A DNA stretch of 37,453 bases, taken from IMG/VR virus record IMGVR_UViG_3300023548_000271, positions 1 to 37,453 of that record, one strand, 5' to 3'. The position numbers and the translations under genes are program-made. The notes under the pieces were generated by a model, which made no database searches, had not been told where the DNA came from, and was given only the letters and a program-made list of their open reading frames with translations. This stretch comes from a virus. Shown here in pieces: positions 1-37,453 of this stretch. Numbering within the stretch: the stretch's first letter is position 1; each line of letters begins with the position of its first letter.

Positions 1-386
1 TTAATCCATCAGGGACTGAACCGCTGCCAGGAGGGCGGGGGCCGCAGTTTCCGTTCGCAGGATGCGTGGCCCAAACGAGATACGTTGGAACCCCAGATTG
101 GCAAGGATATCAAGGTCGTGTCCGCTCCAGCCCCCCTCCGGACCAATGGCAAAACTTGCCAGTTCCGACCTGCAAATCTGTTCCTTGACTGTTTTCCAAG
201 GTGTATCAGCTTCCGGGTGGAGGCAGAACAATGAGCCCGGGCGTTCGATCTTATCCAGGTGCGGGCGCCACTGAACATCTGGGATGGCGGTTCGACCACT
301 TTGTTCGGCAGCCTCCGTAACAATCCTGCGCCAGCGAGTCAGGCGGGAGACCAGTTTCTCTCCGGCAAGTTTGAGGCTTGAGCGAT
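1..386 (-). pseudogene. rsmE: rsmE 3' fragment, disrupted by prophage insertion
   Basis: This is the C-terminal part of RsmE, the SPOUT-family enzyme that methylates N3 of U1498 in 16S rRNA. The fragment holds RWRRIVTEAAEQSGR, the knot motif GPEGGW and GPRILRTETA near the C-terminus, which form the SAM-binding trefoil knot. The stop is the TAA at 1-3. About 130 codons remain out of roughly 240 in the family, and the N-terminal PUA-like RNA-binding domain is absent. The reading frame stays open to a GTG at 399, but that codon lies inside the phage end, so it is not the natural start. The gene is judged inactivated by the transposition at 387. Confidence 0.88.
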
Positions 387-427
387 TGTAACGCGACACT
401 TGGTTTTAAAGCTCGCGACACTTGGTT
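387..427. repeat. Prophage right end with two transposase-site-like direct repeats
   Basis: The end reads TGTAACGCGACACTTGG from 387, and the 14-mer CGCGACACTTGGTT occurs at 392-405 and again at 414-427. The 22-bp spacing is about two helical turns. Terminal TG and iterated binding sites are the known layout of Mu-family ends, where the transposase N-terminal domain binds. That these repeats are the binding sites is an inference. Bases 428-479 hold no gene; they separate the end from the last tail gene. Confidence 0.72.
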
Positions 428-479
428 CTAACCACCCATAGGTATTTAATCGCCCCTTAATTATGCATTTTACGGTGCA

Positions 480-9188: not shown

Positions 9189-9342
9189 CCTCAACCTTGT
9201 CCTTGATCGTCTTCAGCAGATCGCCGCGAATGATCAGATCCCGTCCGGGATAAAGCGTGCGGCCCAGGACCTCGACCGGCTCCCTGAGCTTGACGCGGTA
9301 GTTCTTGCCGTCGCTGATCCGGATCGCCTTACTGCGCGACAT
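9172..9342 (-). CDS. Small phage protein in fibre locus, unknown
   Basis: This 56-aa frame starts MSRSKAIRISDGKNYRVKLR and ends with the helix DLLKTIKDKVEDV. It begins 14 bases inside the end of the large fibre gene and ends 17 bases inside the next gene, so it is embedded in the coupled operon. This overlap pattern is the main support that it is translated. The beta-then-helix composition offers no firm family. Confidence 0.65.
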   Translation of the reverse strand: MSRSKAIRISDGKNYRVKLREPVEVLGRTLYPGRDLIIRGDLLKTIKDKVEDVHAV

Positions 9343-11500
9343 CGATCCGCTCCGTTACGGTAAACGGCGCCGTTCCGGCGTTCTTCGAACCGGTAAGCTT
9401 CACCTGGTACGTGGTCAGGCCGGGACTGGGCGCGAAGGTGAACCTGAACCTTGTCGCGCCTCCTTCCTCCGCAAACGTCTCTGTCAGCGATGCCGGCGTG
9501 CTTGCACCGGCATCCTCCAGAGAGGCCACCAGGGAGTGATTCGCCGCATTGTAGTTGTGCGCGACAACCTCGACCGTGATATTCGTGGACGCCGCTGCCA
9601 GCGTGCGCTGCGCCGAGTAGTGAATAAACGCATCGGCGGACTTGCTGGCCGTCAGCCTGTCGATGCCGGCAGTGAATGCCGGCGCCAGATCGCTCGTGCC
9701 GAGGAAGACGGCGCGCAGCGGGATGATGGCCGGCGCGCCGGCCAGATGATCCACGCCGTCATCCAGCCTGTACCATTTGCCGTCAACCTGGATCTCGTAG
9801 TGCAGTTCCGTGCCTTCGGGGACAACCTGCTCCGTGACGATATCCAGATCCGAGATGCCGCCGGCAAGTGATACGGACTGCAGATCCACCTCGGTCCTGG
9901 CCTGCGAGAACTCCGCGCCGTAGAACGTGAACATCAGGTCCTTGGTCAGGTCCGCCACGAAGTAGTCGCCGTCCGTGCCGTTGAACAGCGTGCCCTGGGT
10001 GTAGTTGTTGCCGGAGACCACGGCTACCCGGTGATCGCCCTGGGTGATCAGGACAAGCGCATACCGTTTGCCGGCATCCAGCAGCGCCGGCGGAATGGCT
10101 ACGGTCGTCTCTGCCGGATAGGCTTGCAGATTTGCCTGCGGAATAGTCACGTCTGTCACCGCGCGGTTCAGGTCCGGCTTGCCGCCTACCGTTTCGCAGA
10201 CGATTGCGTGCACATCTCCGGTGGCGCCGATCTGGGTAAACTGGAGGCCGATCTGCGTCAGCCACATGGCATTCGGCACCAGAATGGTCTGGGCCAGGAG
10301 AGAGCCGTTGACGGAGGTCGGCGTGACATCGGGGCGGTAGGGATCAACGTCGCGGTCATCCCAGTAGTTGTCGCCAAGGTTGAAACGACGAGTGGGATGG
10401 TAGGTCCAGTACCAGCGCGAATACCACTGCTGGTACATGTTCCAGGTCAGTCCGTAATGGTGATTCCACCGGTTGGTCAGAAACTTGTAGTAATTCAGTG
10501 CCTGGGACTGGTACTGCGACAGCGAAATATCGCCGGCATAGCCGACAGTCCGGAGACGGACCTTGCTGGTATATTTCGGCAGGACCAGTCCGGAGGCGGA
10601 CCGGATCACATTCGGATCATTGGGATTGAAAAGCTCAAGAGGCGCCAGCAGTTCGCTGGCATGCGGGAAGAGCAGGCCGTTATTGACCAGGGCGGAATAA
10701 CCCGCAGCGGCCGGGTCCGTGTCCGTCAGGTCGCCAAAGTAGTCCGCGTCATAGCTGGCGTAGGCACTGGGCAGACCCAGCTTTTCCTTCAGCCGGGCTA
10801 CATCGCCGGAGATCTCGATGATTGATTTGCGCTCGGCCAGGTTGGCCGTCTTGTTGGCCAGGGCGGCAAGGTCCGTAGCGATGGACCCGATCCTGGGTTC
10901 CGCCTGCTCCTTCCATGTCTCCTGCGCCTGGAGGCGCTGTTCCTGGTCGTTCGAGTTCGGCAGCTTGTCCGCCGTCTGCATCTCGATCAGGGTGATGCCG
11001 GTGGGATCCAGCGTGATCATGGCGACCGCCAGGGATCCGGCCTGCACCGTCGGCGGCTGCGGATCGGCGGACTCGGTGCCGGGCAGGACGTTGACGACTG
11101 CCTGCCGCAACCGCTGCATGGCGACGGCTTGCGGCTCGGTCGTGCCGGCGGCGAGATCGACCAGGAAATCACGGGGTTCGACGTTGGTGTCCGTTTCCTG
11201 ACCCCAGACGACCACCGCGACCTTTTTCTTGGTCGTGACCGGCAGGTGATTGAACAGGTCCAGTGTTGACACCTGCTCGCTGACATACACCTTGCCGCCG
11301 TCAAAGAGCCGACCGGCGGCCACATCGACCTTCGTGCTGCTTCCCGCGCTCTTGGATGTGTCGAACCCGGTATAGTGCAGGCCGTTCGAAATCGCGTCCG
11401 AGACGATATGCTGGATGCTGTCCGCTACATACGTCTGCAGATTGTTCGGATCCGCCGCCTGAAACTCCTGCTGATCACGGAAAATAACCTGTTTCTCCAT
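9329..11500 (-). CDS. Large tail fibre/appendage protein (putative)
   Basis: This is a 723-aa protein from ATG 11500, chosen because it overlaps the gpI stop (TAATG). The N-terminus (EKQVIFRDQQEFQAADPNN) resembles virion-attachment ends of phage appendage proteins. Residues ~60-180 contain a conserved-looking beta module (VDVAAGRLFDGGKVYV). A helical linker lies at ~200-245, and a Tyr/Trp-rich central region (NHHYGLTWNMYQQWYSRWYW) follows. Two beta domains form the C-terminal half. The location after gpI is that of P2 gpH. Receptor binding is inferred from position and architecture. Confidence 0.75.
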   Translation of the reverse strand: MEKQVIFRDQQEFQAADPNNLQTYVADSIQHIVSDAISNGLHYTGFDTSKSAGSSTKVDVAAGRLFDGGKVYVSEQVSTLDLFNHLPVTTKKKVAVVVWGQETDTNVEPRDFLVDLAAGTTEPQAVAMQRLRQAVVNVLPGTESADPQPPTVQAGSLAVAMITLDPTGITLIEMQTADKLPNSNDQEQRLQAQETWKEQAEPRIGSIATDLAALANKTANLAERKSIIEISGDVARLKEKLGLPSAYASYDADYFGDLTDTDPAAAGYSALVNNGLLFPHASELLAPLELFNPNDPNVIRSASGLVLPKYTSKVRLRTVGYAGDISLSQYQSQALNYYKFLTNRWNHHYGLTWNMYQQWYSRWYWTYHPTRRFNLGDNYWDDRDVDPYRPDVTPTSVNGSLLAQTILVPNAMWLTQIGLQFTQIGATGDVHAIVCETVGGKPDLNRAVTDVTIPQANLQAYPAETTVAIPPALLDAGKRYALVLITQGDHRVAVVSGNNYTQGTLFNGTDGDYFVADLTKDLMFTFYGAEFSQARTEVDLQSVSLAGGISDLDIVTEQVVPEGTELHYEIQVDGKWYRLDDGVDHLAGAPAIIPLRAVFLGTSDLAPAFTAGIDRLTASKSADAFIHYSAQRTLAAASTNITVEVVAHNYNAANHSLVASLEDAGASTPASLTETFAEEGGATRFRFTFAPSPGLTTYQVKLTGSKNAGTAPFTVTERIDVAQ

Positions 11501-12723
11501 TACTGGACTCCTATCCACTGGCCGCTGACGATCTGGCCTGATTTGATGGTGCGCCGGGCTGCCGCGACCGCCTTGGTGCGCGTCCGGATCATGATTTTGT
11601 CCGCCTCCCGCCTGGCAAACTTCAAGGCGTCAAGCACGGCGTGATAATGCTTCTTGTCCGCTTTCGGCAGATAGCCGCGGATATACCGGCCCACAAGCGC
11701 CGCAGAGGCTCGCCGGGATATCCGGACGGCCACCTCGGCGTGATACGGCGGCATGCCGAGTCTTACGCCCCCAAGATGCGTGCTCATGCCTCGCGGCTCC
11801 AGGGTCCTGGCCGGATCGAACAGGTAGAGACGTTTGTAGAGCCTGTCCGGCGCGGTTGATCGGGAGGCGATCTCACCGATGTAGCTGCCGTCCAGCAGTA
11901 TCGATCTGCGGGAGCCCCGCTCCGCCACCATATCGTAGCGGATGGAGACCGGATCCAGGCCGGGTGTGACGGCATGCTTGTGCAATGTTTCGATGCGATC
12001 GATGTAGGGCGTATCCAGTTGCAGGGTGAAAATTCTCTGCCCCGCCGTGCCGGTAACGATGAAGTCCGGGATACCGCCACACCATGTCGCGTGACCCTTG
12101 TTTCCGGGCTCACGCACCTCTGAAATGGTCACAGCGTCTTTTTCCTCGAGTGATGTTTTACGCTCGACCGTTTTCAGAGGCGTCTCGGATCCCCGGTCCC
12201 AACGAAATGCGCGAATGCCGAACCTGGCAGCCGCATCGCTCTGCATCGGGAACATGCCGCGGCCGGCCGCAGCAACCGGTATGTCTTCCCACAGCATCGC
12301 CTGGCCGGCGGACCTGCTTCCCTGGTCGCGATAGCTGAACAGCCTGAGCTGAGGCATACGATTGAGAAACCTGTTCCGCTCCGACTGCGTCATGGATGGC
12401 GCGCAGAAGGTCTTGGCCGGAGGCGTGATCGTCCGCACGACTTCGGCCCCCATCCAGCGGGCCATAGCCTTGTAACAGAACTCCGTGCCCTGGCGGCGGT
12501 GCAGGTTCCACGAGGCGGAGGTGATGCCGCGCCGCACCTTGTCGTCATCGGGCCAGGCAGGGACATTCAGGCCCCAGGCCAGCCACGGCAACAGGCGGGC
12601 AGGTATCGATGCGGGGCGATAGAGCTGCTTGATCGTGGCCGGATCGGTGGCGGCTCCGGCTGATACAGCCTGGCTTAACGCCGATTCAAACGGCGTTTTA
12701 TTCGGGGGTAACAGATCAGACAT
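11500..12723 (-). CDS. Tail/baseplate protein I (P2 gpI-like), extended
   Basis: This is a 407-aa protein. The first ~130 residues match the P2 gpI type: LLPPNKTPFESALSQAV, then LPWLAWGLNVPAWPDDD and HRRQGTEFCYKAMARWMG. The C-terminal ~270 residues are an extension beyond the ~180 aa usual for gpI. They carry Arg-rich beta sequence and an AARRTIKSGQIVSGQWIGVQ end of the type seen in fibre-connector regions. gpI tethers tail fibres to the baseplate, so the extension is probably a fibre-binding arm. Upstream, a 107-base gap with an inverted repeat separates it from gpJ. Confidence 0.82.
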   Translation of the reverse strand: MSDLLPPNKTPFESALSQAVSAGAATDPATIKQLYRPASIPARLLPWLAWGLNVPAWPDDDKVRRGITSASWNLHRRQGTEFCYKAMARWMGAEVVRTITPPAKTFCAPSMTQSERNRFLNRMPQLRLFSYRDQGSRSAGQAMLWEDIPVAAAGRGMFPMQSDAAARFGIRAFRWDRGSETPLKTVERKTSLEEKDAVTISEVREPGNKGHATWCGGIPDFIVTGTAGQRIFTLQLDTPYIDRIETLHKHAVTPGLDPVSIRYDMVAERGSRRSILLDGSYIGEIASRSTAPDRLYKRLYLFDPARTLEPRGMSTHLGGVRLGMPPYHAEVAVRISRRASAALVGRYIRGYLPKADKKHYHAVLDALKFARREADKIMIRTRTKAVAAARRTIKSGQIVSGQWIGVQ

Positions 12724-14026: not shown

Positions 14027-14457
14027 CAGTTCAGGAAGATGCCATCCGGCGCCGTGGCGCGGATGATCCCAACGGAATGAAGATTCATTTGCTTTGATCC
14101 CCGGTGGTAGGAGACCTGTGACCCGTCGTCCCATATCAGGATGTCCAGGTTCGGATCATCACTCGGCGCCGGGAACAGGTCGCGATAGATTGCTGGCATG
14201 ACGACGCCGCGGTTCAGATCGCCGGCAGGCGCCACGATCATGACCTGCTCGCCGATCGACGGCGGACTCCAGACGCGCAGCGCGCCGGCCCGGATCGCGG
14301 CGAACGGCAGCCATCCGGTCAGGGCATCGGCCGCCATCCGCACGCGAACTCTCCGTGCAGGGTAATCCGCTTCCTCGATCACGCCGACGCGGAACGACGA
14401 ACCGTGACGGCGATCGGTCTCGCCCAGAGAAAGGAGATCCTGAAAATCCGTGCTCAA
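14026..14457 (-). CDS. Baseplate assembly protein V (central spike)
   Basis: This 143-aa protein carries the family's OB-like start (SSFRVGVIEEADYPARRVRV), IGEQVMIVAPAGDLNRGVVM and a beta C-terminus. TTG 14457 is chosen as start because it overlaps the upstream TGA (TTGA) and has GGAAAG upstream; no ATG fits. The usual gpV is ~200 aa, so this one is slightly short. It forms the trimeric spike on which the PAAR protein sits. Confidence 0.85.
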   Translation of the reverse strand: MSTDFQDLLSLGETDRRHGSSFRVGVIEEADYPARRVRVRMAADALTGWLPFAAIRAGALRVWSPPSIGEQVMIVAPAGDLNRGVVMPAIYRDLFPAPSDDPNLDILIWDDGSQVSYHRGSKQMNLHSVGIIRATAPDGIFLN

Positions 14458-14987
14458 TTTACTTTCCAATAATCGGGGATGTGGCCGGGGCCGATGTTGG
14501 GCGTAACGCCCAGGTAAACCTCGGTGGGGATGACGCCGGCACCGTCCCAGACGGAGGCGCCCAGGCGAACCGTCTGCTGCCAGGGGATCCCCCACAGGGC
14601 GAAGCCCGCCTTGTCCGCGATATTGTTGCTGAGGCTGTCCAGACGCTCGACGACCGCCATCGACAGGCCGGAAAGACCCCACTGGTTCTGGTGGATTGTC
14701 AGCGCCACCCGCTCGGCCAGGTTGACGCAATCGGCGCCGCGGGCCGCATGGCCCCGCGCGTTCCTGGCCAGCACATAGGCTGCGAAGCGGCATTTCAGAT
14801 CCAGCTGGTCCGTTCCCGGATCCGCGTCCGGAACAGCGGAGAGGACCGCCACGAAGATGGCCGGCGCCTTGACCGCAACTTTCCTTGTCGTGCCACCACT
14901 GAACTGACCGTCATACGGTTTGCACTGGGCGACGCCGGGGATGGCCGCAAGCGCGGCGATGGCTGCCTCCTGTACGGTGGTGATCAC
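14454..14987 (-). CDS. Mu gp37-like protein (DUF1834)
   Basis: This 177-aa protein matches the Mu gp37/DUF1834 type: helix TTVQEAAIAALAAIPGV, AIFVAVLSA and the C-terminal WDGAGVIPTEVYLGVTP. In Mu the homologue lies between gp36 and the tail sheath and is a tail terminator/neck-type protein. Here it directly follows gp36 and precedes gpV. It overlaps both neighbours by 4 bases. Confidence 0.85.
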   Translation of the reverse strand: MITTVQEAAIAALAAIPGVAQCKPYDGQFSGGTTRKVAVKAPAIFVAVLSAVPDADPGTDQLDLKCRFAAYVLARNARGHAARGADCVNLAERVALTIHQNQWGLSGLSMAVVERLDSLSNNIADKAGFALWGIPWQQTVRLGASVWDGAGVIPTEVYLGVTPNIGPGHIPDYWKVN

Positions 14988-15409
14988 AGAACCTGAAGCC
15001 CTTCACGGGTAAAGGTTCTGCCCGGCCCCTGCGTTTTCGGTCCGTCCGTCTCCGGCGCGGTCGTACCGTCAGTGGCCGGCCCGAGGCTGAACACACCCTT
15101 GGCGATCCCTCTCAGCCAGGCGAGGACTTCCGCGTAGTCGTTCGCGATCTTTTCGGTCTCGGCATCGTCATAGAGGTTATGCCTGGCGATCTTGCAGGCA
15201 GCCAGCTTCAGCACCGCCGGCGGATTGGCCAGCGGCAACTGGTAGCGCGACTGCAAATACCCGTCGATCTCCGCGTCGGCATCGGCCAGCGCTTGGTTGG
15301 CAATGGCCACGTCGATAACTCCGGCGGGCGGATCCAATCGGTCGGTGCGCTCGATCAGCTCATCTTCACCGTAGCGGTCGATCAGATCCTGCAATGTGGC
15401 GTAGGGCAT
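14984..15409 (-). CDS. Mu gp36-like head completion protein (DUF1320)
   Basis: This 141-aa protein begins MPYATLQDLIDRYGEDELI and has LADADAEIDGYLQSRYQLPL and a helical AACKIARHNLYDD segment, all typical of DUF1320. Members occupy the head-tail connector region and are thought to be adaptor proteins. The ORF ends with a Pro/Thr-rich tail. It lies between the small FluMu-type protein and gp37. Confidence 0.9.
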   Translation of the reverse strand: MPYATLQDLIDRYGEDELIERTDRLDPPAGVIDVAIANQALADADAEIDGYLQSRYQLPLANPPAVLKLAACKIARHNLYDDAETEKIANDYAEVLAWLRGIAKGVFSLGPATDGTTAPETDGPKTQGPGRTFTREGLQVL

Positions 15410-18983: not shown

Positions 18984-19064
18984 GGCCGTTGATTCGGGCA
19001 CGCGACCGTCATGCTCATACCATGATCGTTACGGACGTTCAGGTTTCGGGACGGATCAACGGCC
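18984..19064. repeat. Inverted repeat between MuF and G genes
   Basis: The arms GGCCGTTGAT (18984-18993) and ATCAACGGCC (19055-19064) are perfect complements about 61 bases apart. In the minus-strand RNA the 3' arm abuts the AAGGAG ribosome site of G, and the 5' arm covers the MuF stop codon. A hairpin could link MuF termination with G expression. The function is not known. Confidence 0.5.
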
Positions 19065-20309
19065 TTTCTTTATCCATAAACTCTGCAATGCCAGCATTCT
19101 TCGCTTCTTCCTCACCTCGAACGTCACGGTATAAAGGTCATCATGAATCCGTTTGCGGTATCTGATTACCGGATGCCCCACATCCGATTTTCCGCTATAG
19201 CCTATTTCGTCAGGATCATTCAGGACGACCGTGATCAAGCTGAAGTCATGAGCAGTGACAGATCTCTGGCCGCGCCCTGCTTCCACCTTGGTGTTGCCAT
19301 GCTTTTTAAGCACATGACGTGGAGCGAACCTGTCCAGGGCGAAGTCATATAGCGACACATCGAGTCCTTTCACAAGTTGAGCGACCTGCGCCACGTCTTT
19401 CGATGTAAGCAGCCCCATCGTTCTGTATTCCGGCACCTTACGGCCCGCAAGCACGGCCTGGGCATATCGGCGCACATCATCCGCAACGGACGGAAGTTCA
19501 CGGTATGATCGCGCGAGATCATCACGCACGGATTCCGGCACTCCTTGCATGTAGGCTTTGGCAAGCACGTATTCCCACTGCTGTGTTTTACGCGCCATAG
19601 CCCTTACCGTATCACTAACAGTATCTCCCGGCTGATAGTCCCAGCCCTTGTCGATGCCCACCGGCGCGCCCGTCTTGGGATCAAGCTTGTTCCAGGACGG
19701 ATTCAGCTTCCTGCCCGGGTCACCTCCAAGCCTTCTGGCCCCGGCGGCGGATCTGGCGCCAAGCAGGTAGCAGCGACAGCCCCAGCCGTTCGGAGCCGAA
19801 TGTGTGTTCCAGAATGGATGGTCGCCTGGCAACGTGATGCCGTCCCATGACAGATGCAGGGGCCTGGGATGGGCGACGGAATCGTTGTGCTTGTATATCC
19901 AGAACCTGAAGCCGCCTTCTCGCAGCTGGGCAACCCGGCCTGCGGCGTAGGATGTGGATGCGTTGGTCTGGTAGATGACGCGTGTGCGCCAGTTCCGACC
20001 GGCCTTCGTGGTCTCGCCGGTCCAGTTGTGCCAGCCGCGGCGCTCGACAATGGAGTGAAAATCCTTGCGGAACGCCTGGAGGCTCTTCCCCTCCGAAATC
20101 GTTCGATCCACGGCGGCGGCCAGGTCGGTCAACAGATCCGCCTTTTGCGCTCCGGCCACCATGAACGCCGTATCGTGCCCGGCACGCTTGATATCATCCC
20201 ATCGCCGGGTCGGCACGAGCTTGCCGAGCTTGCCGCGAAAAAACGCCACCTGTTCGGCAAACGGCTTCCTTAACACCCCTGAGACCACGGAAGGTTGAGC
20301 CTGCCTCAC
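19056..20309 (-). CDS. MuF minor head protein with C-terminal BECR nuclease-like domain
   Basis: This is a 417-aa protein (GTG start, overlapping the upstream TGA). Residues ~1-185 form the MuF domain, with ISEGKSLQAFRKDF, RVIYQTNASTSYAAGR and the hallmark NGWGCRC at 174-180. Residues ~290-417 look like a phage BECR-type (barnase/EndoU/colicin E5-D/RelE-like) nuclease tail: RHVLKKHG with H332 and H337, RGQRSVTAHDF and the terminal basic strands. MuF proteins are packaged in the head with DNA, and such fused nucleases could be delivered on infection. No dedicated immunity gene is evident next to it. Confidence 0.85.
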   Translation of the reverse strand: MRQAQPSVVSGVLRKPFAEQVAFFRGKLGKLVPTRRWDDIKRAGHDTAFMVAGAQKADLLTDLAAAVDRTISEGKSLQAFRKDFHSIVERRGWHNWTGETTKAGRNWRTRVIYQTNASTSYAAGRVAQLREGGFRFWIYKHNDSVAHPRPLHLSWDGITLPGDHPFWNTHSAPNGWGCRCYLLGARSAAGARRLGGDPGRKLNPSWNKLDPKTGAPVGIDKGWDYQPGDTVSDTVRAMARKTQQWEYVLAKAYMQGVPESVRDDLARSYRELPSVADDVRRYAQAVLAGRKVPEYRTMGLLTSKDVAQVAQLVKGLDVSLYDFALDRFAPRHVLKKHGNTKVEAGRGQRSVTAHDFSLITVVLNDPDEIGYSGKSDVGHPVIRYRKRIHDDLYTVTFEVRKKRRMLALQSLWIKKGR

Positions 20310-20608
20310 GAAACGTCGGCCCTCACGTCCATCCAGGCGTAGCCGACAACGCCGGTATCGCCTTCAGCCGTATCCACCACCACCTTGATCTTGTAACGCA
20401 CGCCATCCGCGCCGCCTGAAAAGTTGGCCCGCACCAGCTGCCTGTTATCCGTTGACGGCGGGCCGATCGTCAGCCCTGCCGGCGTCGCCGTAACCGATTG
20501 CACCGTCTGGATATTGTGCGGCGTTTTCCGGCCGCCTGCGAGGACATCGTGCATGTCGATGTCATACAGCCGGCTTTCTCCAACCTCTTTCTCAAGCGCC
20601 TTGCTCAT
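20306..20608 (-). CDS. Possible fibre-tail adaptor-like protein
   Basis: This is a 100-aa protein with a short helical/charged start (SKALEKEVGESRLYDIDM) and a beta sandwich-like C-terminal half (VRANFSGGADGVRYKIKVVV, then a DTAEGDTGVVGYAWM strand). The C-terminal pattern resembles adaptor proteins that bridge fibres and phage heads or necks. It is the last of five genes lying between terminase and MuF, where Mu-like phages normally have only the portal gene. Confidence 0.55.
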   Translation of the reverse strand: MSKALEKEVGESRLYDIDMHDVLAGGRKTPHNIQTVQSVTATPAGLTIGPPSTDNRQLVRANFSGGADGVRYKIKVVVDTAEGDTGVVGYAWMDVRADVS

Positions 20609-21676
20609 CTACGCCCCCTCTGCCCTTATCACCGTCCATCTCTCGCCGGGTCTTGCAATGAGGTTTCTTCCCCTGGCCCTGAATACCAGGCATCGGCCCT
20701 CGGCGCGGTATGCGGAGACGGCGCCGCTATCGCCTGCCTGCGCTGATGCCATGCTTGCGGAGATGGTTGATGCGCCATCCGTTACACCTGCGTTACCAGC
20801 CTGCGTAATGTCCGAATCCGCGGTGCGGACCTGACCAATGATTGCCGTGATATGACCCAAATCACCGGCCTGGGTCGAGTCCATGCCGGCAGCGATCACT
20901 CCCGAAGCGGCGCTTGTCCCCGTATCACCCGCCTGCGCTGATGCCATGCTTGCGGAGATGGTTGATACGCCATCCGTTACGCCGATGTTGCCAGCCTGCG
21001 TAATGTCCGAATCCGCGGTGCGGACCTGACCAATGATTGCCGTGATATGGCCCGAATCACCGGCCTGGACGGCTGCCAGGATGGCCTGGCTTTCCGCGAC
21101 AGCCTCTGTTTGCCCGGAGTTAGCGCCCTGGGAGACGTTTGAGCCAATACCGGCAGTTACGGCCGCGCCTGTTTGCCCGCCATCCCCGGCCTGGGTCGAG
21201 TCCATGCCGGCAGCGATCACTCCCGAAGCGGCGCTTATTCCCGTATCGCCGGCCTGGGTTGCGGGCCAGGAGAGGCGCGCCCTGAGAGTTGCCGCCGCCT
21301 GGCCGGCGTCCGGTTCCTGCGGCCCGGACATGCCGGCGGACACAGACGCGGCAATGAATCCGCTGCCGACCTGATTCTCCTGGACAACAACGGAGGATCC
21401 GTCGATTTGCGCGTGAACCGCCGCCGCGCCTGTTTGATCCGCCTGCGATACCGATGACCGGATGCCAACCTGTGACGCCGCCCGGGCCGTGGAAACGTCC
21501 CCGGCCTGCACGCTGAGCATCGTTGCGGCAATCATGACGCCGGCTGCCGTCAGGGACGCCTGACTGGTCTGGATTAAACTGGAATCGATTGACCTGGCTG
21601 CGGCGCCGCCCTGCGCGCCGGCATCGTGGGTGCGCCAGTTTGTGCCCTGTTTCGGATCTCTGGTGAACCAGACCAT
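20609..21676 (-). CDS. Ala/Gly-rich repeat protein (QAGD repeats)
   Basis: This is a 355-aa protein. A short N-terminal cap (VWFTRDPKQGTNWRTHDAGA) precedes about 11 imperfect repeats of ~23-25 residues, each ending near SxxQAGDxG and carrying a small-residue strand such as SGVIAAGMD or STISASMA. A 65-residue block is nearly duplicated. The C-terminal ~30 residues (GRCLVFRARGRNLIARPGER) are distinct. The pattern suggests a beta-helix or stalk-like fibre. No named family was recognised. Confidence 0.7.
   Translation of the reverse strand: MVWFTRDPKQGTNWRTHDAGAQGGAAARSIDSSLIQTSQASLTAAGVMIAATMLSVQAGDVSTARAASQVGIRSSVSQADQTGAAAVHAQIDGSSVVVQENQVGSGFIAASVSAGMSGPQEPDAGQAAATLRARLSWPATQAGDTGISAASGVIAAGMDSTQAGDGGQTGAAVTAGIGSNVSQGANSGQTEAVAESQAILAAVQAGDSGHITAIIGQVRTADSDITQAGNIGVTDGVSTISASMASAQAGDTGTSAASGVIAAGMDSTQAGDLGHITAIIGQVRTADSDITQAGNAGVTDGASTISASMASAQAGDSGAVSAYRAEGRCLVFRARGRNLIARPGERWTVIRAEGA
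20737..21065. repeat. 195-bp period tandem near-repeats in QAGD-repeat gene
   Basis: The block beginning CCTGCGCTGATGCCATGC at 20737 recurs at 20932 with few differences, giving a 195-bp (65-codon) period. The sub-block GGTCGAGTCCATGCCGGC also recurs near 21190. The high DNA identity between copies indicates recent expansion by recombination or slippage within a surface-type protein. Confidence 0.8.
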
Positions 21677-22582
21677 TTATACCACCGTCGGCGTGATCGG
21701 TCCGGCGATCACGGTCTCTTTCAGGGCGACACTGCCGGGCGGCATGGACGCGTTCACCGGATCGGGAATGAGCATCACGTCGTTACCTGTCGTCACGGTT
21801 ATGGTTACGGATCCGGCACCTCCGGCGATGGCCGCGCTCCCAACAACATTGAGCTGCCCGGACGCAAACGTACTGGCCTCCACAGCGACGACATTGATGC
21901 CGTCCGCGAGGGCGACGCCGGCAGAATCCTGTAGCGTTTCGGTGACCTGGTACGACACCTCCTGAAGATCCACGTCCCAGATCTCAAAGCCCCATTCGCG
22001 GCCGGTCGAACCCTTGTTTTCATTCGACATTGCATAGAAATACTGATACGTGGCCGGTTCCCCGGCATCATGGGCCACCGTGTCCGTGGCGATTTGCTGC
22101 GTTCTGGCGGCATCCGAATAGAAAAACACGGTGACGTTGTTGGCATCCACCACGATCTTGCCGTAGACAACCGTATTCTCGTTAAACGCGCCGGTAACGC
22201 CGTTGCCCTTCATATTGGCGCCGGCTGTAAACACGTTGATGTCCACCTTGCCGGCCCCGTCGGACTGGAACTGGATGCCGCAACCCGGCCAGCCGTTGTT
22301 CTTGTGTGTCCGGAAGTCGCCGATATTGTTGCTATAGCACATCCCGAAGCACTTGCCATTGCCGGTCGTGTCCGTGTATCTGAACGTAAACAGGTGAGTC
22401 CAGCCGGTATTCCGCACGAAATGCCCGGCCGTGGCATCCTTGTACAGGATGGCCTCGGCATCCGAATCCGCAGGCGCATTGATGTCCGCGGAGGCCATCG
22501 ATCCGGCCGGCGTTGCGGCGGGAAAAAGGATGTACCCGTTCGGATCGGATTTCGTGTATCCGGAGAGGATTTCAAACGGCAT
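21677..22582 (-). CDS. LamG-like beta-sandwich protein (putative fibre)
   Basis: This is a 301-aa protein. Residues ~25-215 show alternating beta strands with aromatic positions (GHFVRNTGWTHLFTFRYTDT, KVDINVFTAGANMKGNG, VVYGKIVVDANNVTVFFYSD, REWGFEIWDVDL), like a concanavalin/LamG-like sandwich. A Thr/Val-rich Ig-like tail (~215-300) follows. Sandwiches of this kind often bind sugars in phage fibres. It overlaps the next upstream gene by 11 bases. Confidence 0.65.
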   Translation of the reverse strand: MPFEILSGYTKSDPNGYILFPAATPAGSMASADINAPADSDAEAILYKDATAGHFVRNTGWTHLFTFRYTDTTGNGKCFGMCYSNNIGDFRTHKNNGWPGCGIQFQSDGAGKVDINVFTAGANMKGNGVTGAFNENTVVYGKIVVDANNVTVFFYSDAARTQQIATDTVAHDAGEPATYQYFYAMSNENKGSTGREWGFEIWDVDLQEVSYQVTETLQDSAGVALADGINVVAVEASTFASGQLNVVGSAAIAGGAGSVTITVTTGNDVMLIPDPVNASMPPGSVALKETVIAGPITPTVV

Positions 22583-22802
22583 TGATCAAGGTCCTTTTCA
22601 CCCTTATGGCCTTCAATATGGCGTCATGCGTGTCTTCATAATCAGACCATTCCTGCCTTGTGACGGCGCCGGCCATGAACATGGATCCGTAATAATTGTG
22701 TTCGGCGATTGCCGCCGCATGCAGTTTTTCCAGAATGTCCAGCTGTCTCGATTTTGAAACAGCCGGGATTCGCAGCGGCAGCGTGATCGCTGATCCAATC
22801 AA
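22572..22802 (-). CDS. Small helical protein, unknown
   Basis: This is a 76-aa protein. Apart from a short beta start (GSAITLPLRIPAV), it is mostly helical (SRQLDILEKLHAAAIAEHNY, TRQEWSDYEDTHDAILKAIR). It overlaps both neighbours by 4 and 11 bases, so it is expressed with the fibre-like block. It could be a chaperone or adaptor for the neighbouring fibres. No family recognised. Confidence 0.62.
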   Translation of the reverse strand: MIGSAITLPLRIPAVSKSRQLDILEKLHAAAIAEHNYYGSMFMAGAVTRQEWSDYEDTHDAILKAIRVKRTLINAV

Positions 22803-23410
22803 GCAGGATGCTCCAGCACAATCTTCGGTATGGTCACCTGACCACCCAACTGGATGCTCAGATTGTCCATTCCCAGATAGCCGGCCAGGACAGCCTTGCC
22901 GCCACTCACGTAGACCCCATAGGCCGTTGAATCAACACCGTCCAGTGTGAACGTATCAACGCCTGTTACGGTGATCGTATGAATCATGTCATTTATCTCG
23001 ACCATGCCGACCACACCCGTTATCAGGATATTGTCTCCCGTGGTGAACCCATGACCCACGCATGTGATCTGGCACGGGTTGGCTTGAGATGCGCCACTGA
23101 TTGACTTGTTCTGCATGACAGGCCAATCCATTCGTTCGCCCGATGAGGCGAAAAGGCGCGCCCATCCGGCAGTCCCCGTGGCATCCGCCGCGGTATCCTG
23201 GATCTGTGAACTAATGACTGAACGGCCGTTTGCAGCAGCACCAAACGCGGGATTCCCCATGACGAAAGACGCCAGGACATTACCTGTCGGGGGATCGTCG
23301 GCCGAGGCCGGCATGGCGCCGTCCCTGATTTCAAATGATTGACCGTTGAATTTGGACAAGAGCCCGTCCAGCAGGGCGTTTCGTGCATTTGTGTTGATGT
23401 TGAATGGCAT
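22799..23410 (-). CDS. Phage structural protein of the fibre-like block
   Basis: This is a 203-aa protein. The N-terminal ~105 residues (NINTNARNALLDGLLSKFNG, FEIRDGAMPAS, GNVLASFVMGNPAF, then DATGTAGWARLFASSGERMD) resemble a short structural protein common beside fibre genes in tailed phages. Residues ~110-185 form a beta domain (GHGFTTGDNILITGV, VTGVDTFTLDGVDST) resembling a known ubiquitin-activating-like repeat of fibres. It directly follows the terminase gene, replacing the expected portal gene. Confidence 0.66.
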   Translation of the reverse strand: MPFNINTNARNALLDGLLSKFNGQSFEIRDGAMPASADDPPTGNVLASFVMGNPAFGAAANGRSVISSQIQDTAADATGTAGWARLFASSGERMDWPVMQNKSISGASQANPCQITCVGHGFTTGDNILITGVVGMVEINDMIHTITVTGVDTFTLDGVDSTAYGVYVSGGKAVLAGYLGMDNLSIQLGGQVTIPKIVLEHPA

Positions 23411-23422
23411 GTTTCTCTCCTT

Positions 23423-24958
23423 TTAATATCCGGCAGTATCCAGGGCGCCACCGACCGTGCCCCAGCCGGTATGGCCGCGCGGCAACCGGCCGGAAACGCC
23501 GGCATCGTTGAGCAGCGATGCCGAGGCCCTGCGGCCGGTGGATTCAAAGTCGATATGCACGGCATCCATGAGGCTGGCCGCATAGGCCAGGGCGATGGCG
23601 ATGGCGGAATCGCCATGCCTTTTCCCTTTCTTGTCCGTCTTGCCTTCCGGTACACGCGGCACGCCACGCACCAGGCGGATGGCGCGATGATCCTCCAGCA
23701 CGTCATCGTGCCGCGGGACGGTGATCAGCCGATCCTCATAGGCGGCCTTGTACTTCGGCATGTTTTCCCGATACCAGGCTTCGGTGAAGTGCACCTGCTC
23801 GATGCAGGATCCATATCTGTCGTGGGCGGACTCTGCGATATAGGAGCCGTTGCCGGTGGCGTCGATCGCGCCGGCATGCAGCCTGGGGAGGGCGTCCACC
23901 ACTGCAAACAGCACCTGTTCCTGCTGCTTGTGCGGCACGTTGCGCATCTCGACCAGGAAGGGCACCCGACGGTGCAGGGTTTCGCCGATCTCCATCGGGG
24001 CGATATCGCTCATGTCGCCGACTCTGGCGAAGTCCATGCCAAAGGCGTGGCGCCGATCCGGATCCAGCCGGGCGAATAGGGGGCGCAGGACATCGTTGAT
24101 CCAATCCTGGGTCTCGGCGCGGCGCACTGGCTCGGGGGCCATATTGAAGCTGCGCGATCCCTCGAAGCGGACCACGGGCGCATCCACCATGCATGCCTCG
24201 ACCAACGCCCTTGGCAGGTATGCGCCGCCACCGAAACTGGGAATGCAGAACAGCTCCTCGTCCTCGTTGGGGCGGTAGCGCCGAATCAGTGACTCGCGCC
24301 ATTCAGCCTCGGCCTCGGGAGACCACTGCCGCTTTGTCACCTCGCAGATGCGGCGAAAGAGGCCGTCCTCCAGCGCATCGTCGAGGGTGACGCGATGCAG
24401 GCTGTAATCGTAGCGGCCGGCGCGAACATCGTTTATGAGCATGTTAAACGGGTTTTCATCGCCATTGTGGGTGCTGATGATGCGCACCGACCCGCCCCAC
24501 ATGGTCATCGCCATCGCGGCTTTAAGCAGCTCCTCGATATCATCCACGAATGCGGCCTCGTCCACGATCAGACGCTCACCAGGCCGCCCCTTTGAACGCA
24601 GGTTGCGGGGGTTGGAACTGAATGTCTGGATGGAATGTCCGGAGGCAAAGTTGATGCGATAAATCAGGATATCGCGATCCGGATTCTTTGGGTCCGGCAT
24701 CAGGCTCTCGCCGATTTCACTTGCGCCGGCATTGAAGGCCTTGGCCCACGACGCGCAATCCTCGATGAAGCCCGCGGTCATCTCCTTGTCATAGGAGATG
24801 TAGTAGACATTGGCACCGGCCGCAGCGGATGCATGAAGAACGGAATCGGCCGCCTCGGCATATGAAAGGCCGATGCGTCGGCTTTTCTCGATGATCCTTA
24901 CCGGGGCCTTGTCCTCGATCCAACGCCTCTGATATGGCAGCAGAATGGACCCGTTCAA
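23423..24958 (-). CDS. Large terminase subunit (Mu gp28 type)
   Basis: This is a 511-aa protein. TTG 24958 is taken as the start (GAAGGAG upstream, TTGA overlap with gp27). The ATPase has the degenerate Walker A IEKSRRIGLS at 23-32 and Walker B LIVDEAAF at 130-137. The RNase H-like nuclease has acidic residues in FGMDFARVGD (D309), AIDATGNG (D366) and KRHGDSAIA (D450). It packages phage DNA by headful cutting of host-flanked transposition products. The C-terminus (GWGTVGGALDTAGY) is complete, so the missing portal is not due to a broken gp28. Confidence 0.94.
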   Translation of the reverse strand: MNGSILLPYQRRWIEDKAPVRIIEKSRRIGLSYAEAADSVLHASAAAGANVYYISYDKEMTAGFIEDCASWAKAFNAGASEIGESLMPDPKNPDRDILIYRINFASGHSIQTFSSNPRNLRSKGRPGERLIVDEAAFVDDIEELLKAAMAMTMWGGSVRIISTHNGDENPFNMLINDVRAGRYDYSLHRVTLDDALEDGLFRRICEVTKRQWSPEAEAEWRESLIRRYRPNEDEELFCIPSFGGGAYLPRALVEACMVDAPVVRFEGSRSFNMAPEPVRRAETQDWINDVLRPLFARLDPDRRHAFGMDFARVGDMSDIAPMEIGETLHRRVPFLVEMRNVPHKQQEQVLFAVVDALPRLHAGAIDATGNGSYIAESAHDRYGSCIEQVHFTEAWYRENMPKYKAAYEDRLITVPRHDDVLEDHRAIRLVRGVPRVPEGKTDKKGKRHGDSAIAIALAYAASLMDAVHIDFESTGRRASASLLNDAGVSGRLPRGHTGWGTVGGALDTAGY

Positions 24959-25509
24959 CCGATCATCTCCTTCATGATGGCAGCACGCATGGCCTCCACC
25001 GCGTCCGTAGACAAGCCTGCGCGCTTGGCTTCCGCCGCAGCCGTATCGGCGGCTTCGTCCGCCATGCGCCTGCGCTCCTCTTCTCTCCACTTCTTGTGGC
25101 TGATGGTCAGCCGTCCGAGTTCGGCGATGGCCCTGGAGACCTGGGCCATGTAGCGGGCGGCCTTTCCCGGCTCGTCCTCGGCCTTGCGCAAGCCGATGAG
25201 GATGCGCAAGAGCTGCTCCTGGGCGATGCGCGCCGAGGCCTCGGTGAGCGCGGCGCGTTCATCCTCGTCCGACTGGGCGTAGGCGCGAGCCAGCTCCGTG
25301 GCTTTTTTCACATCCGCCATCGCGTGCTCGAAGTCCTGCTGCAGGCCCTGGCCGTAGCGGTGTAGCGCCGATTTGCTGATCTCGTAGCCCTGCCCATCCA
25401 GCCAGGCAGCAAGATCCTCGTAGCCGGAAAAGCCGCCAGCCACCAGGCGGGCGTTCAGCTCTTCGCGCACCTCCAGCGGCAGCCTGAGCACGGTGGACCT
25501 GGCAGGCAT
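24955..25509 (-). CDS. Small terminase-like protein, DUF3486 (Mu gp27)
   Basis: This 184-aa protein from ATG 25509 begins right after the stop of the gp26-like gene. It has the DUF3486 features: RSTVLRLPLEVREELNARL, then AAWLDGQGYEISKSALHRYG, and long helices to the end (AEAKRAGLSTDAVEAMRAAI). It is the presumed small terminase, binding DNA via the N-terminal HTH-like region. The 20 residues upstream of this methionine in the same frame are less conserved in style and overlap the previous gene. Confidence 0.88.
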   Translation of the reverse strand: MPARSTVLRLPLEVREELNARLVAGGFSGYEDLAAWLDGQGYEISKSALHRYGQGLQQDFEHAMADVKKATELARAYAQSDEDERAALTEASARIAQEQLLRILIGLRKAEDEPGKAARYMAQVSRAIAELGRLTISHKKWREEERRRMADEAADTAAAEAKRAGLSTDAVEAMRAAIMKEMIG

Positions 25510-28409: not shown

Positions 28410-28733
28410 TCAGCGCCTCAGGATATTTCTGATCTGGCGCTCGGAGAGGTTATAGCGCCGAGCCAGCGAGTTTACTGTCTCTGAGCCGGCCATACGCCGT
28501 ATTTCCTCATTCCGTTCGTTGTTTCTGGATAGGGGAATGTATAAAACCTCGCCGCCAAAATAGCGCACAAATTTGTCCGCGGCCTCACGCCCAAGCTCAA
28601 CTGCTAACGGGTGCGTATCATCTACACGCTTGGGTATTGTCAGGTTGGTCCCGCCAAAGCGGCGAACCAGACGAGAGACCCCTGATTCGCCGATCACCTC
28701 CCGTATTTCCCGCAAGATTCTTGATCTCATCAT
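28410..28733 (-). CDS. Mor-family transcription activator
   Basis: This 107-aa protein matches the Mu Mor/C family: a helical N-terminus (RILREIREVIGESGVSRLVR), the LAVELGREAADKFVRYFGGE region and a C-terminal HTH (GSETVNSLARRYNLSERQIR). Mor switches on middle transcription in Mu, and the related C protein switches on late operons. Only one such gene is seen here, so it may serve as the sole late activator. It follows GemA with overlap. Confidence 0.93.
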   Translation of the reverse strand: MMRSRILREIREVIGESGVSRLVRRFGGTNLTIPKRVDDTHPLAVELGREAADKFVRYFGGEVLYIPLSRNNERNEEIRRMAGSETVNSLARRYNLSERQIRNILRR

Positions 28734-32011: not shown

Positions 32012-32285
32012 CTTTTCTGACTCTCGGAGGATATGGCCCGGTATTTCTCACAAGCTGATAGACTGTATGCCCTCCCTTGACCCCCTCGATCTTTGGCCTG
32101 GCTATACGTATATGGCCCGACATCAGCAGAGCCCGGACAAACTTATCTACATTTGATCGTGTGATTTCCGCCGTGGCCTCAAGATCCGGCAATGTGAATC
32201 GGCGCATGATTCTCATGGCTGTCCATGCCCTGTATCGAGCATTCACCTCGACCTTGCGAGTATGGGATCCGTGTTTGCGTGACAT
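31959..32285 (-). CDS. Winged-helix-like protein downstream of MuB
   Basis: This 108-aa protein from ATG 32285 overlaps the MuB stop (ATGA). It has an HTH-like segment (AMRIMRRFTLPDLEATAEIT, then SNVDKFVRALLMSGHI) and a wing (GGHTVYQLVRNTGP). The basic N-terminus (SRKHGSHTRKVE) suits DNA binding. It could be an auxiliary transposition or regulatory protein. Confidence 0.72.
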   Translation of the reverse strand: MSRKHGSHTRKVEVNARYRAWTAMRIMRRFTLPDLEATAEITRSNVDKFVRALLMSGHIRIARPKIEGVKGGHTVYQLVRNTGPYPPRVRKDGSVYDQNTGEVTVVLD

Positions 32286-32995
32286 CAACGGTGATCCGGG
32301 CCGACAAAGAACGCCTTTCCTGCCGGCCAGTCGGCCAATGTCATCCGTTTTTTGTTCTTTTTCTTGCCGAGCGTTTCGATCTGGGAGAGGCCAACACACA
32401 AGTTCCGCACGAGTCCTCTTGCTTTTTTGTGGAGCGCTGTGAGCAGATCGTCAGCAACCTCAACCTCACATAACCCATCCGCCAGCTTGCGGGCGTCATC
32501 AAAATCGCATGGCTCAAAGCGCACCCATTCCGCCAGGCGACCGGAGACCTGCTTGCGTGCCTGAATTTTCCTGTGGATTCCCTCCATGCCGATCAAAACG
32601 ACCGGAATGGAACTCATGTCATGGATATCACGCAACGTCTCCACCAGGCGTTTCTGGTCAAGAACGTAATCCGCCTCATCGACAAAAAGAGCCCTGCCTG
32701 TTTCAGACAATCGTGAGACAACTCTGTCCACCATGACGGCCAGATTCCTGGCCGGAGCTATATCGAGCTCGTCTGCAATCGCGCCAAGCATGGCTGATGG
32801 GGACCACAGGGCCATTGCTCTCACGTAGACGCCGTGACATTGATTCACGTACCAGGCGATCGCGGTTGTTTTCCCGGAGCCTGTTGGTCCATAAACCAGG
32901 CCCATTCCCGGCATGCCATATGCTCTGGTTGTCAACGCTTCGCCAGCGATGCTCATTCGCGCCACGTTTTTGATCTTCAGTATCCTTGATTTCAT
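32285..32995 (-). CDS. MuB-type AAA+ target-selection ATPase
   Basis: This is a 236-aa AAA+ protein with Walker A GPTGSGKT (36-43), Walker B LFVDEAD (103-109) and PVVLIGMEG as a sensor region. The C-terminal part is helical and basic (GKKKNKKRM). As in Mu B, it binds DNA non-specifically, activates the transposase and delivers target DNA away from the phage's own genome. It directly follows the transposase gene. It lacks Mu B's long N-terminal HTH, so it resembles BcepMu-type B. Confidence 0.92.
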   Translation of the reverse strand: MKSRILKIKNVARMSIAGEALTTRAYGMPGMGLVYGPTGSGKTTAIAWYVNQCHGVYVRAMALWSPSAMLGAIADELDIAPARNLAVMVDRVVSRLSETGRALFVDEADYVLDQKRLVETLRDIHDMSSIPVVLIGMEGIHRKIQARKQVSGRLAEWVRFEPCDFDDARKLADGLCEVEVADDLLTALHKKARGLVRNLCVGLSQIETLGKKKNKKRMTLADWPAGKAFFVGPDHR

Positions 32996-33004
32996 GATTC
33001 CTCC

Positions 33005-35113
33005 TCACTCGGCCTCGACGAATTTCCGCATCGCGGAAAACTCCACGGTTCGCTCGTAGGACTTCATCAGATCCAGCTCCCGCTCACTGAGCGTTTCTCC
33101 CCGCGTGTGTCTGGCCTTGAACGATTCATAGAGCTGCCAGTTCCGGATCGGATCATCACCGAATTCCAGAACTGTTCCTTCTTCCTTATTCGCCTGATCC
33201 GCTTCTTCCTTTTCCCACTTCTCAATGAGTGCCTGCGCCTCCTCATCCAGTGGCCGCGCAATCTGTGGCTCGTTTTTCGGTTTATGGATCCGCACGATCT
33301 TTGCGTCCGGAACGTCTGCCTGAGCGATATCGGGCAGCATTGCTGCGGCCTCTAACACGCTCATCCGACGTTGCGCCTCCAACTGGGCTTTTGTCGCTCG
33401 TATATATCGCTTGCGGTTCCTGGCGTGCTCTTTTGCCGCCTGAACATTGTTGAACCCCTCAGCCTCAAGGCATATCGCGGTGCCGATGAAGCGGTTGTCG
33501 AGGGTGAATGCATGCACTGGATAATGGAGCTTGTCTGGGTCAAATCGCAGAACGACCCTGTGGCCAGCATATTCTTCCAGCTCCTCACACCAATAGCGGT
33601 TCCTCCGATCGAATTTCAAATGAACGCTTCCATCCCCCCGGACCATCACACCCTCAGCTGCCAGCAACCAGAGCTTGAACTGGTTTGATGTTGCCTTTCT
33701 GATGACACTTTTCTCATATGATTCGGCGAATATCAGATCAAAGCTTCTTCCGTTTGCGATACCGCCGCGCCTTCCCATTCTTGCGTTATGGGCTGCTATT
33801 TCTTCAGACAGGACGGACAGAAACACTCTCAGGTCAATCGCCTTTGACCCGTAGTTTTCCGGTTTTGCGTCTGGTTTGTTTCCCGTGTAGGCACCCGAGA
33901 ATTTGGGGTGTTTGGCCACATATTCGCAGAGATCGCGGAAGGCGCGCTCGATTGGTTTGGCCTGGCCATGATAGGGTGTTGTCCAGTGGATCTGGACGCC
34001 CATCGTCACCATGATGCCTGTTGGATCCTCAGGCCGTATTTTGAATCGGAACCGGTTGGGCGCGCCGCCTGTGAGCCATTTCGCGGCAAAACCACGGCCA
34101 TTATCGAGATAGGCATGGTCGGGTATTCCGTATGTTTCGACCATGTCGCCAAATGACAGTCTGATGGAGTCCGCATTTTCCGTCTTCGCCACTCGATATG
34201 ACAGAATCTTGGATGAGTAGATATCCTGCCATGCGACCATGATCGGCCTGGTCACCTCCCCATCCGGCCACTTCACAAACACATCAAACCTGTGGCCATC
34301 AGCGTTGACCGCCTCCATCGCATGGAAGACTGTTTTGTCCCGTTCCTGGGCCGGATATGTCTTTTTGACGGCATCGACCCCTTTTCTGGCCAGGATCCGG
34401 ACCCCGCGGGGGATCTCTTTACGGATGCGGCGCTGGACGGTCCGTAGATCCGGCACCTTCCATCCTTTCTCGCTTGCCACGCGCATAAGACGCTCGTAGC
34501 AAGCGGCTGAGGCCGGTCCTTCCAGCCTCAGATAGTCGGCCTTGAACCAGTTCCATGCTTCCGGACTGAATTCCGCGGTCTTGACCCGGCCACAATAGGC
34601 TGGCGTCAAAATGGGCCACCAGTCCGATGGGTGGATGTGTTTTACTTTTCTGATCCAGCTACGAAGTGTCGGCACGGACACACCATATTGATCGGCCACC
34701 AGACCAATGAGCTTGGATTTCGGATCGCAGGGAAGTCCGGCCTCCCGGGACGCGTCCGACCGGGCACATAACTCACGATACAGGTGGATTGCCATGACAG
34801 CCTTTTTGCCGCGAGCCTTGAGTGATTCGGGCTTGCGAGCCCACGCATCCCACAGGCTCTCACGCTGGACGTCCGTAAGATCTCCAGGATGCCTGTGCGG
34901 AACGGGATTGCCGGCGTTTTCTTTCTCACGGCGATAGAGCGCCACCTGCGCCTGGATCGGCAGGCTGCCCAGGGCATACTCCCAGCCGCCGCCGCGGCCC
35001 TTGCGCCGGCGCTTTTCCCAGCTTTCGCGCTTGGCGCGAATCTGAATTGCGCGTTCACTCCCTGGCAGGCCCGGCAGGCCGGCCAGCTCGCGGGCGGAAA
35101 ACCAGGACTTCAT
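33005..35113 (-). CDS. DDE transposase, MuA type
   Basis: This is a 702-aa protein from ATG 35113, with CGGAG upstream. The first ~60 residues (SWFSARELAGLPGLPG, then WEYALGSLPIQAQ) are the Mu-type winged-helix domain that binds the internal activating sequence. Ibeta/Igamma helical domains follow to ~255. The catalytic RNase H-like core has NADG (D272), YLDNGRG (D337) and KPIERAF (E389), a complete DDE triad. The C-terminal barrel and a MuB-binding tail (~600-702) are present. It should be active. Confidence 0.95.
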   Translation of the reverse strand: MKSWFSARELAGLPGLPGSERAIQIRAKRESWEKRRRKGRGGGWEYALGSLPIQAQVALYRREKENAGNPVPHRHPGDLTDVQRESLWDAWARKPESLKARGKKAVMAIHLYRELCARSDASREAGLPCDPKSKLIGLVADQYGVSVPTLRSWIRKVKHIHPSDWWPILTPAYCGRVKTAEFSPEAWNWFKADYLRLEGPASAACYERLMRVASEKGWKVPDLRTVQRRIRKEIPRGVRILARKGVDAVKKTYPAQERDKTVFHAMEAVNADGHRFDVFVKWPDGEVTRPIMVAWQDIYSSKILSYRVAKTENADSIRLSFGDMVETYGIPDHAYLDNGRGFAAKWLTGGAPNRFRFKIRPEDPTGIMVTMGVQIHWTTPYHGQAKPIERAFRDLCEYVAKHPKFSGAYTGNKPDAKPENYGSKAIDLRVFLSVLSEEIAAHNARMGRRGGIANGRSFDLIFAESYEKSVIRKATSNQFKLWLLAAEGVMVRGDGSVHLKFDRRNRYWCEELEEYAGHRVVLRFDPDKLHYPVHAFTLDNRFIGTAICLEAEGFNNVQAAKEHARNRKRYIRATKAQLEAQRRMSVLEAAAMLPDIAQADVPDAKIVRIHKPKNEPQIARPLDEEAQALIEKWEKEEADQANKEEGTVLEFGDDPIRNWQLYESFKARHTRGETLSERELDLMKSYERTVEFSAMRKFVEAE

Positions 35114-35132
35114 GACCGGTCTCCGCGTGCTA
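35061..35132. repeat. 72-bp perfect direct repeat, copy 1 (transposase 5' end)
   Basis: The sequence starting CCTGGCAGGCCCGGCAGGCC at 35061 is identical, base for base, to 35962-36033. It contains the first 17 transposase codons, its ribosome site and the start of a divergent promoter element. Outside the 72 bases the two copies diverge. The rest of the homologous N-terminal region continues to about 34947, with ~65 % amino acid identity to the partner region ending at ~35849. Confidence 0.95.
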
Positions 35133-35143
35133 CTATCCACGGC
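35128..35143 (+). promoter_or_regulatory. Extended -10-like element directly before a plus-strand start
   Basis: TG-C-TACTAT (35128-35136) is an extended -10-like element, and seven bases (35137-35143) separate it from ATG 35144. This distance would place transcription start at the first base of the ATG, i.e. a leaderless mRNA, and no ribosome site is present. The same element and spacing recur at 36029-36044. The identification as a promoter is inference. Confidence 0.45.
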
Positions 35144-37096: not shown

Positions 37097-37453
37097 CTAT
37101 TCCACCGCACGCAATTCGACCTTGCGCTTACGGCCGCCCCAGCTACGCTTGAGAAGTTTGGTACCCGGAACGACAGGCCGGCCGTATTCGTCGTAGCGAT
37201 CCGGCCACAGCTCCCAGGGTTTGCGCTCCAGGAGTTCGGCGATGATGCGCTCGACCGCCGGCCAGGGGATATAAAGCGCGCGTTCGGCGGCGCGCGATGA
37301 ATAGCCGTGCTCGCGGGATACTCGGCTCATCGTCCAGCCGCGCTTGCGCAGCTCGCACTTGATATCCTCCGGGTGCCAGCCCTTGCGGGGCCGGCGCACG
37401 CGCTTGAGTCCCGCGGTGTTTTGCTTGTCTATTTTCGCTGCTCGATTGGACAT
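37097..37453 (-). CDS. Ner-like transcription regulator (Nlp/HTH family)
   Basis: This is a protein of 118 aa whose ATG is the last base triplet of the window, so an upstream extension cannot be excluded. It has the Ner core: GWHPEDIKCELRKRGWTMSR, SREHGYSSRAAERALYIPWP and ELLERKPWELWPDRYDEYGR. In Mu, Ner is the first early gene product and represses both the early and repressor promoters. The longer, basic C-terminus (KLLKRSWGGRKRKVEL) goes beyond Mu Ner. Confidence 0.9.
   Translation of the reverse strand: MSNRAAKIDKQNTAGLKRVRRPRKGWHPEDIKCELRKRGWTMSRVSREHGYSSRAAERALYIPWPAVERIIAELLERKPWELWPDRYDEYGRPVVPGTKLLKRSWGGRKRKVELRAVE

Follow-up and report, generated by a model that had tools for sequence, protein, structure and literature searches.

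A Mu-type prophage of a probable Mariprofundus-class host lacks the portal gene between terminase and MuF, where a fibre-like cassette lies

In phage Mu, twelve copies of gp29 form the portal, and the C-arm of gp36 fits into its clip; gp37 is the tail terminator (PMC11915804). The reference transposable phages share the portal as a core protein (PMC8705779). We analysed IMG/VR virus record IMGVR_UViG_3300023548_000271, the complete sequence of which is the window discussed here (37,453 bases). Like Mu, Rhodobacter phage RC1 and phage vB_ThpS-P1, the window encodes transposase A and B, Gam, Mor, gp27 and gp28, MuF, gpG, the protease, the major capsid protein (MCP), gp36 and gp37. Unlike RC1 and vB_ThpS-P1, in which the gp29 portal gene lies between gp28 and MuF, it has no gp29, and that interval is occupied by a block of five genes (b1 to b5). 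We consider it fairly probable that this Mu-type, contractile-tail prophage, integrated in the rsmE gene of a Mariprofundus-class host, underwent a clean loss of gp29 beside a mobile fibre cassette and is defective in packaging.

The gp29/DUF935 portal is absent between gp28 and MuF in the record. The Portal_Mu family (PF06074) had no match anywhere in it, and the same search, as a positive control, matched all five of the other records run alongside. A profile iterated from the portal of L198, a prophage in a Mariprofundaceae metagenome-assembled genome (MAG), gave no hit at E≤10 when run against the window in six frames; the L198 portal from which it was built matches two portal proteins of solved structure, 8rka and 9khx. 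Nor did any open reading frame (ORF) match a portal proper of another family in Pfam and PHROG scans of the window, the latter taking in all coding-strand ORFs of at least 300 amino acids (aa). An earlier note on this DNA had reported that the portal was missing, that no other frame in the window resembled one, and that portal profiles should be run over all frames; our empty six-frame search agrees with it, and the two "portal" labels that the scans returned have other explanations.

The first of these labels belongs to phrog_490, matched at 14454-14987; the gene is a homologue of Mu gp37 (PF08873) and not a portal. The second comes from the match of MuF to phrog_2662, which covers only profile positions 611-705 of 717; we take these to be the MuF part of a fused profile and rejected a portal-MuF fusion in the window. 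The 729 aa gene at 9329-11518 was rejected as well: it comes after gpI in the tail module, likewise in L239, whose record is a fragment without a PF06074 match. We note that the "portal protein" label of phrog_490, attached to what is a gp37 tail terminator gene, could mislead annotation; RC1 has two genes of that product name, one of 435 bases where gp37 is expected and one of 1644 bases in the gp28-MuF interval.

Both neighbours of the missing gene are complete, as had been claimed from the sequence at the outset. The gp28-like large terminase gene (23423..25090, minus strand; phrog_2 at 4e-37, PF03237) is intact and ends in a TAA stop at 23425-23423. Its product is 86% identical to that of L198 over residues 43-520, its alignments with L004, L013 and L019 extend to the last residue (555), and the closest gp28 in viral contigs is 76% identical. 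MuF (gp30; 19056..20309, minus strand; PF04233) is 67% identical, over residues 1-415 of 417, to its relative in G055, a genome of the probable host class. As read from the sequence, the junction itself (23408..23425, minus strand) consists of the gp28 stop, a 12-base spacer, AAGGAGAGAAAC, that includes AAGGAG, and the start of b1 at 23410; at the other border a GTGA overlap joins the b5 stop and the MuF start. In the related loci L112 and L126, the portal gene ends 6 bases ahead of a b1-like gene. From the layout of the junction and this spacing it follows that hardly more than about a dozen bases at either former border separate the present sequence from an exact removal of the portal. The junction pattern had no match in the viral contig collection, and neither tandem repeats nor base composition marked the gp28-MuF interval as unusual.

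Both flanking genes have features of their own. The gp28 gene looks mosaic (window 23423-23530), with a body like that of L198 and a last stretch of about 35 residues like those of L013, L004 and L019, an appearance that fits recombination at the gp28 end. MuF carries a C-terminal PBECR3 nuclease-like domain (PF18812; residues 308-416, 4e-16), possibly an injected nuclease.

We also made the comparison with relatives that the earlier note had proposed. The portal is present in every one of the 122 loci that have both gp28 and MuF, from a set of 209 loci, and in all 25 both-neighbour loci of a later, MCP-anchored set of 55; these comparators were found using the window's own genes and are not independent (some, such as L011 and L012, seem to be the same phage more than once, and a single contig entered both sets, as L096 and L245). 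No portal match was found in 52 of the 209 loci, each of which lacks gp28, MuF or both: 40 had been fetched with b1 (L158-L197), one (L209) is a piece of the window, and 11 have gp28 alone or MuF alone. We opened seven of these 11 (L083, L097, L106, L154, L153, L019 and L005). In one of them (L083:1-4233), MuF (55%) is preceded by about 2.9 kb with neither portal nor gp28, and the locus is probably a prophage remnant. The nearest relatives of the window are L198, in gp28 and also in MCP (72%), and G055, in MuF. Unlike the window, both have a portal, in a plain gp28-portal-MuF order with no fibre block.

Among the 122 loci, 17 have an unusually wide gap beside the portal. A block lies between portal and MuF in L037, L075, L111, L126, L151, L112 and L124, and between gp28 and portal in L023 and L078, while L035 has other head genes in between; each of the ten records was confirmed to match PF06074. 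Within the L037 block, one gene has a match to PF23140, a fibre family of GP4 (Gp80), and one of L023 matches a laminin-G-like lectin domain. In L111, L112, L124 and L126, as in the window, a b1-like gene (phrog_3758) heads a block with a mid-size gene and a repeat gene just before MuF. Unlike the window, these loci have an intact portal directly ahead of the block, and their other block genes had no tblastn match to b2-b5. The description of the block as standing in the place of the portal is therefore right in part: the portal is absent and the block is there, but most relatives with such a block have it after the portal and before MuF, as an addition and not a substitute.

On sequence grounds, b1 to b5 (all on the minus strand) are best read as a mobile tail- or neck-fibre cassette and not as a portal, because G046, a genome of the same bacterial class as the probable host, carries relatives of b1, b2 and b3 and then a repeat protein in the place of b4, in the same order, in a fibre position, and in a prophage with a portal of its own. 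The prophage in question, on contig C8 of G046, is of lambda type, with a GpA terminase and a PF05136 portal. Relatives of b1 (44% identity), b2 (37%) and b3 (49%, 274 aa) are followed there by a repeat protein, and the cassette comes after the tape-measure gene and later tail genes, including those of the tail tip, which is the tail-fibre position. No b5 relative was seen at the G046 cassette. The b1 relative on this contig (L300:7600-8140) contains an in-frame TGA, so that it is either broken there or misread.

The individual genes are consistent with a fibre function, as the earlier note had held. The product of b1 (22799..23410) is a 203 aa virion protein that combines a phrog_3758 N-terminal part with an E1_FCCH-like domain; its residues 1-91 are 35-37% identical to the portal-adjoining genes of L111, L112, L124 and L126, of which that of L112 matches phrog_3758 at 3e-34. 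The b2 product (22572..22802; 76 aa) is assigned to the cassette from its match to the G046 counterpart, 36.7% over 60 residues. For b3 (21677..22582; 301 aa), the resemblance to a gene in tail-fibre position in G046 points to a protein that is probably beta-rich and fibre- or lectin-like. The b4 product (20609..21676; 355 aa) is a repeat protein, rich in Ala, Gly, Gln and Asp, which shares position and repeat style with a 393 aa gene of G046, though the pair match is weak (E=0.013). The 100 aa product of b5 (20306..20608) resembles a fibre-tail adaptor of the Gp77 family, with a match to PF23148 at 5e-10 that is over the cut-off. Both b5 (Gp77) and the L037 block gene (Gp80) thus recall the fibre proteins of podophage GP4, with the difference that the matches are limited to single domains.

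Other searches with these genes returned little. Neither b3 nor b4 has a Pfam match, no relative of b3 or b5 was found in viral contigs or phage records, and a search of the PDB with b3 gave nothing useful; b5 had only weak PDB matches to glycosylases, which we take as chance, and one to 8jou_D at E=0.61. Structure prediction, also proposed earlier, was carried out for b3 and b4 from single sequences. The low-confidence b3 model lists 11 strands and not a single helix as long as 4 residues, but at a mean predicted local distance difference test score (pLDDT) of 37 for b3 and 38 for b4 both models are too poor for a fold search.

We read the record as very probably a prophage in its integrated state, with both ends of the record falling at gene borders. 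At its left edge lies the C-terminal part of a host 16S rRNA methyltransferase gene (1..386, minus strand; PF04452 at 8e-29, a family we take to be RsmE), which adjoins the right end of the prophage. That probable end (387..430, minus strand) was located by reading the sequence; the host rsmE is cut by the prophage within window 1-430, and the phage end is marked by two 14-base direct copies of AACCAAGTGTCGCG (405-392 and 427-414), which look like transposase sites at a prophage end. At the other edge, the start codon of a Ner-like regulator gene (37097..37453, minus strand; PF13693, phrog_769) forms the last bases of the record, the final base of the record being the first base of the gene, and the repressor-side end lies beyond it. 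In the Mu-type layout, the repressor alone is expected beyond ner. With host rsmE at the left edge and ner at the right, only the repressor end should therefore be unseen, provided that the element follows the Mu layout.

The rsmE fragment also points to the host. The RsmE piece matches 65 of 398 Pseudomonadota genomes at E≤1e-20 (best identity 58%). Because all 65 fall in the class of G001, a Mariprofundaceae MAG, the host is very probably a bacterium of the Mariprofundus class. NCBI places the Mariprofundaceae in the class Mariprofundia. This class is known as the Zetaproteobacteria, marine iron oxidisers, and the host is thus probably an iron-oxidising bacterium.

Apart from the portal, the element has kept a broad set of phage functions. 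It encodes a MuA-type DDE transposase (33005-35140; phrog_310 at 2e-166), MuB (32285-32995; phrog_296 at 2e-52), a Mor/C late activator (28410-28733; phrog_836 at 7e-27) and Gam. Genes for the I protease and the major capsid protein are present, as are those for a gp36-like head-tail adaptor, the binding partner of the portal (14984..15409, minus strand; phrog_195 at 6e-50), and for a gp37-like tail terminator (14454..14987, minus strand; PF08873, Phage_Mu_Gp37). The contractile tail module is complete, with sheath, tube, tape measure and baseplate. Just upstream of the full transposase gene, a 227 aa protein (35331-36014, minus strand) resembles only the N-terminal DNA-binding part of MuA; it could have a regulatory role or be what remains of a transposase gene.

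The earlier note offered three options, namely that an essential gene was lost, that the portal lies elsewhere, or that one of the unknown genes does its job; the first is the best supported. We propose that a fibre cassette sits in the head operon and that the gp29 gene, between gp28 and the cassette, was cleanly lost. A deletion through short homology between two similar translation-start regions could have removed it, or recombination could have put the cassette in place of the portal. Without a portal dodecamer, the terminase would have no docking site and gp36 no clip to bind, and a head without gp29 should neither start properly nor fill. DNA packaging would thus be impossible, and the element would produce no infectious particles on its own. 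With transposase A and B, Gam and Mor and the contractile tail module in place, transposition and tail assembly may persist.

Several points weigh against this proposal. The junction is cleaner than random decay would give, and the structural genes that we scanned are open and match their families, with no second sign of degeneration; one has to suppose that the portal was lost very recently or that selection has maintained everything else. There is also no close copy of the prophage with or without the portal, given that the nearest gp28 in a viral contig is that at 76%, so that the loss event cannot be dated and a deletion cannot be told from a replacement. Finally, we infer both the order of events and the defectiveness in packaging.

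An error in the record would explain the same observations: the real prophage may have a portal, and the contig may wrongly join gp28 to b1 through an assembly or population artefact. We regard this as unlikely, though not lightly dismissed, given that the source is a virus record without reads, that its junction has no second copy in the viral collection, and that the sole comparator with gp28 and MuF but without a portal is the window record itself. Yet the record contains no N bases, the native gp28 end and the native b1 start flank a 12-base spacer with a well-placed ribosome site, and any word shared by the two sites would be short at most, below the usual assembly k-mer. Alternatively, the portal gene may now lie somewhere else: at the repressor end, outside the record, or in a different prophage or locus of this host, from which the protein would be provided in trans. 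We judge this improbable. The rsmE and ner edges weaken the idea that the portal lies in the unseen part of the prophage, where a Mu-type genome should have the repressor alone; on the other hand, the rest of the element looks intact, as if under selection, and 6 of 78 genomes of the host class contain portal-encoding Mu-like prophages (PF06074). Transposable prophages of Leptospira do relocate head genes, and some Leptospira groups have the terminases and portal together, apart from the other structural genes (PMC8705779). There, however, portal and terminases remained side by side, whereas in the window only the terminases are still in place. We see a slim chance that a coresident prophage supplies the portal in trans, or that packaging takes place only with a helper, with terminase, capsid, gp36 and MuF kept under selection; interaction among defective prophages of E. 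coli O157 provides a precedent (PMC2669165).

It is highly improbable that a gene in the window encodes a portal of unrecognised sequence. The best candidates would be b3 and b4, which at 301 and 355 aa are near the lower size limit of portals, lack Pfam matches, and have models too poor to weigh against the idea. But b3 is 49% identical to a gene that occupies the tail-fibre position in a prophage equipped with a lambda portal, the b4 product is made up of repeats, the 729 aa gene takes its place after gpI in L239 as well, and the PHROG scans of the longer ORFs gave no match to a portal proper. We thus rejected a portal inside the block, and the suggestion that one of its genes does the job in an unrecognised way is opposed both by the presence of the same cassette in a lambda-type prophage with its own portal and by similar blocks that adjoin a DUF935 portal. 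We find it just as hard to credit that the element has turned into a tail-only, tailocin-like weapon with no further need of a portal. A full contractile tail module, the missing portal and fibres in excess would suit such a weapon, but terminase, protease, major capsid, MuF and transposase genes are all retained. Domesticated tailocin clusters are not known to keep genes of these kinds; a tailocin would be expected to have no capsid or terminase genes, and here capsid, protease and terminase are all present.

Tailed phages are regarded as unable to do without a portal, and its loss here, the sole one among head and connector genes, would amount to a clean natural deletion. A literature search limited to titles and the beginnings of abstracts found no transposable prophage missing the portal alone, which is a weak negative. 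Should the element be no more than a dead prophage, which is the likeliest case, its interest would be moderate to low. If instead a helper supplies the portal, the element would be a satellite that transposes and has a capsid and tail of its own, with the gateway as its one loan. A Mu-like and a lambda-type prophage from one bacterial class share a fibre cassette, and this identifies the gp28-MuF interval as a site at which host-range modules can settle.

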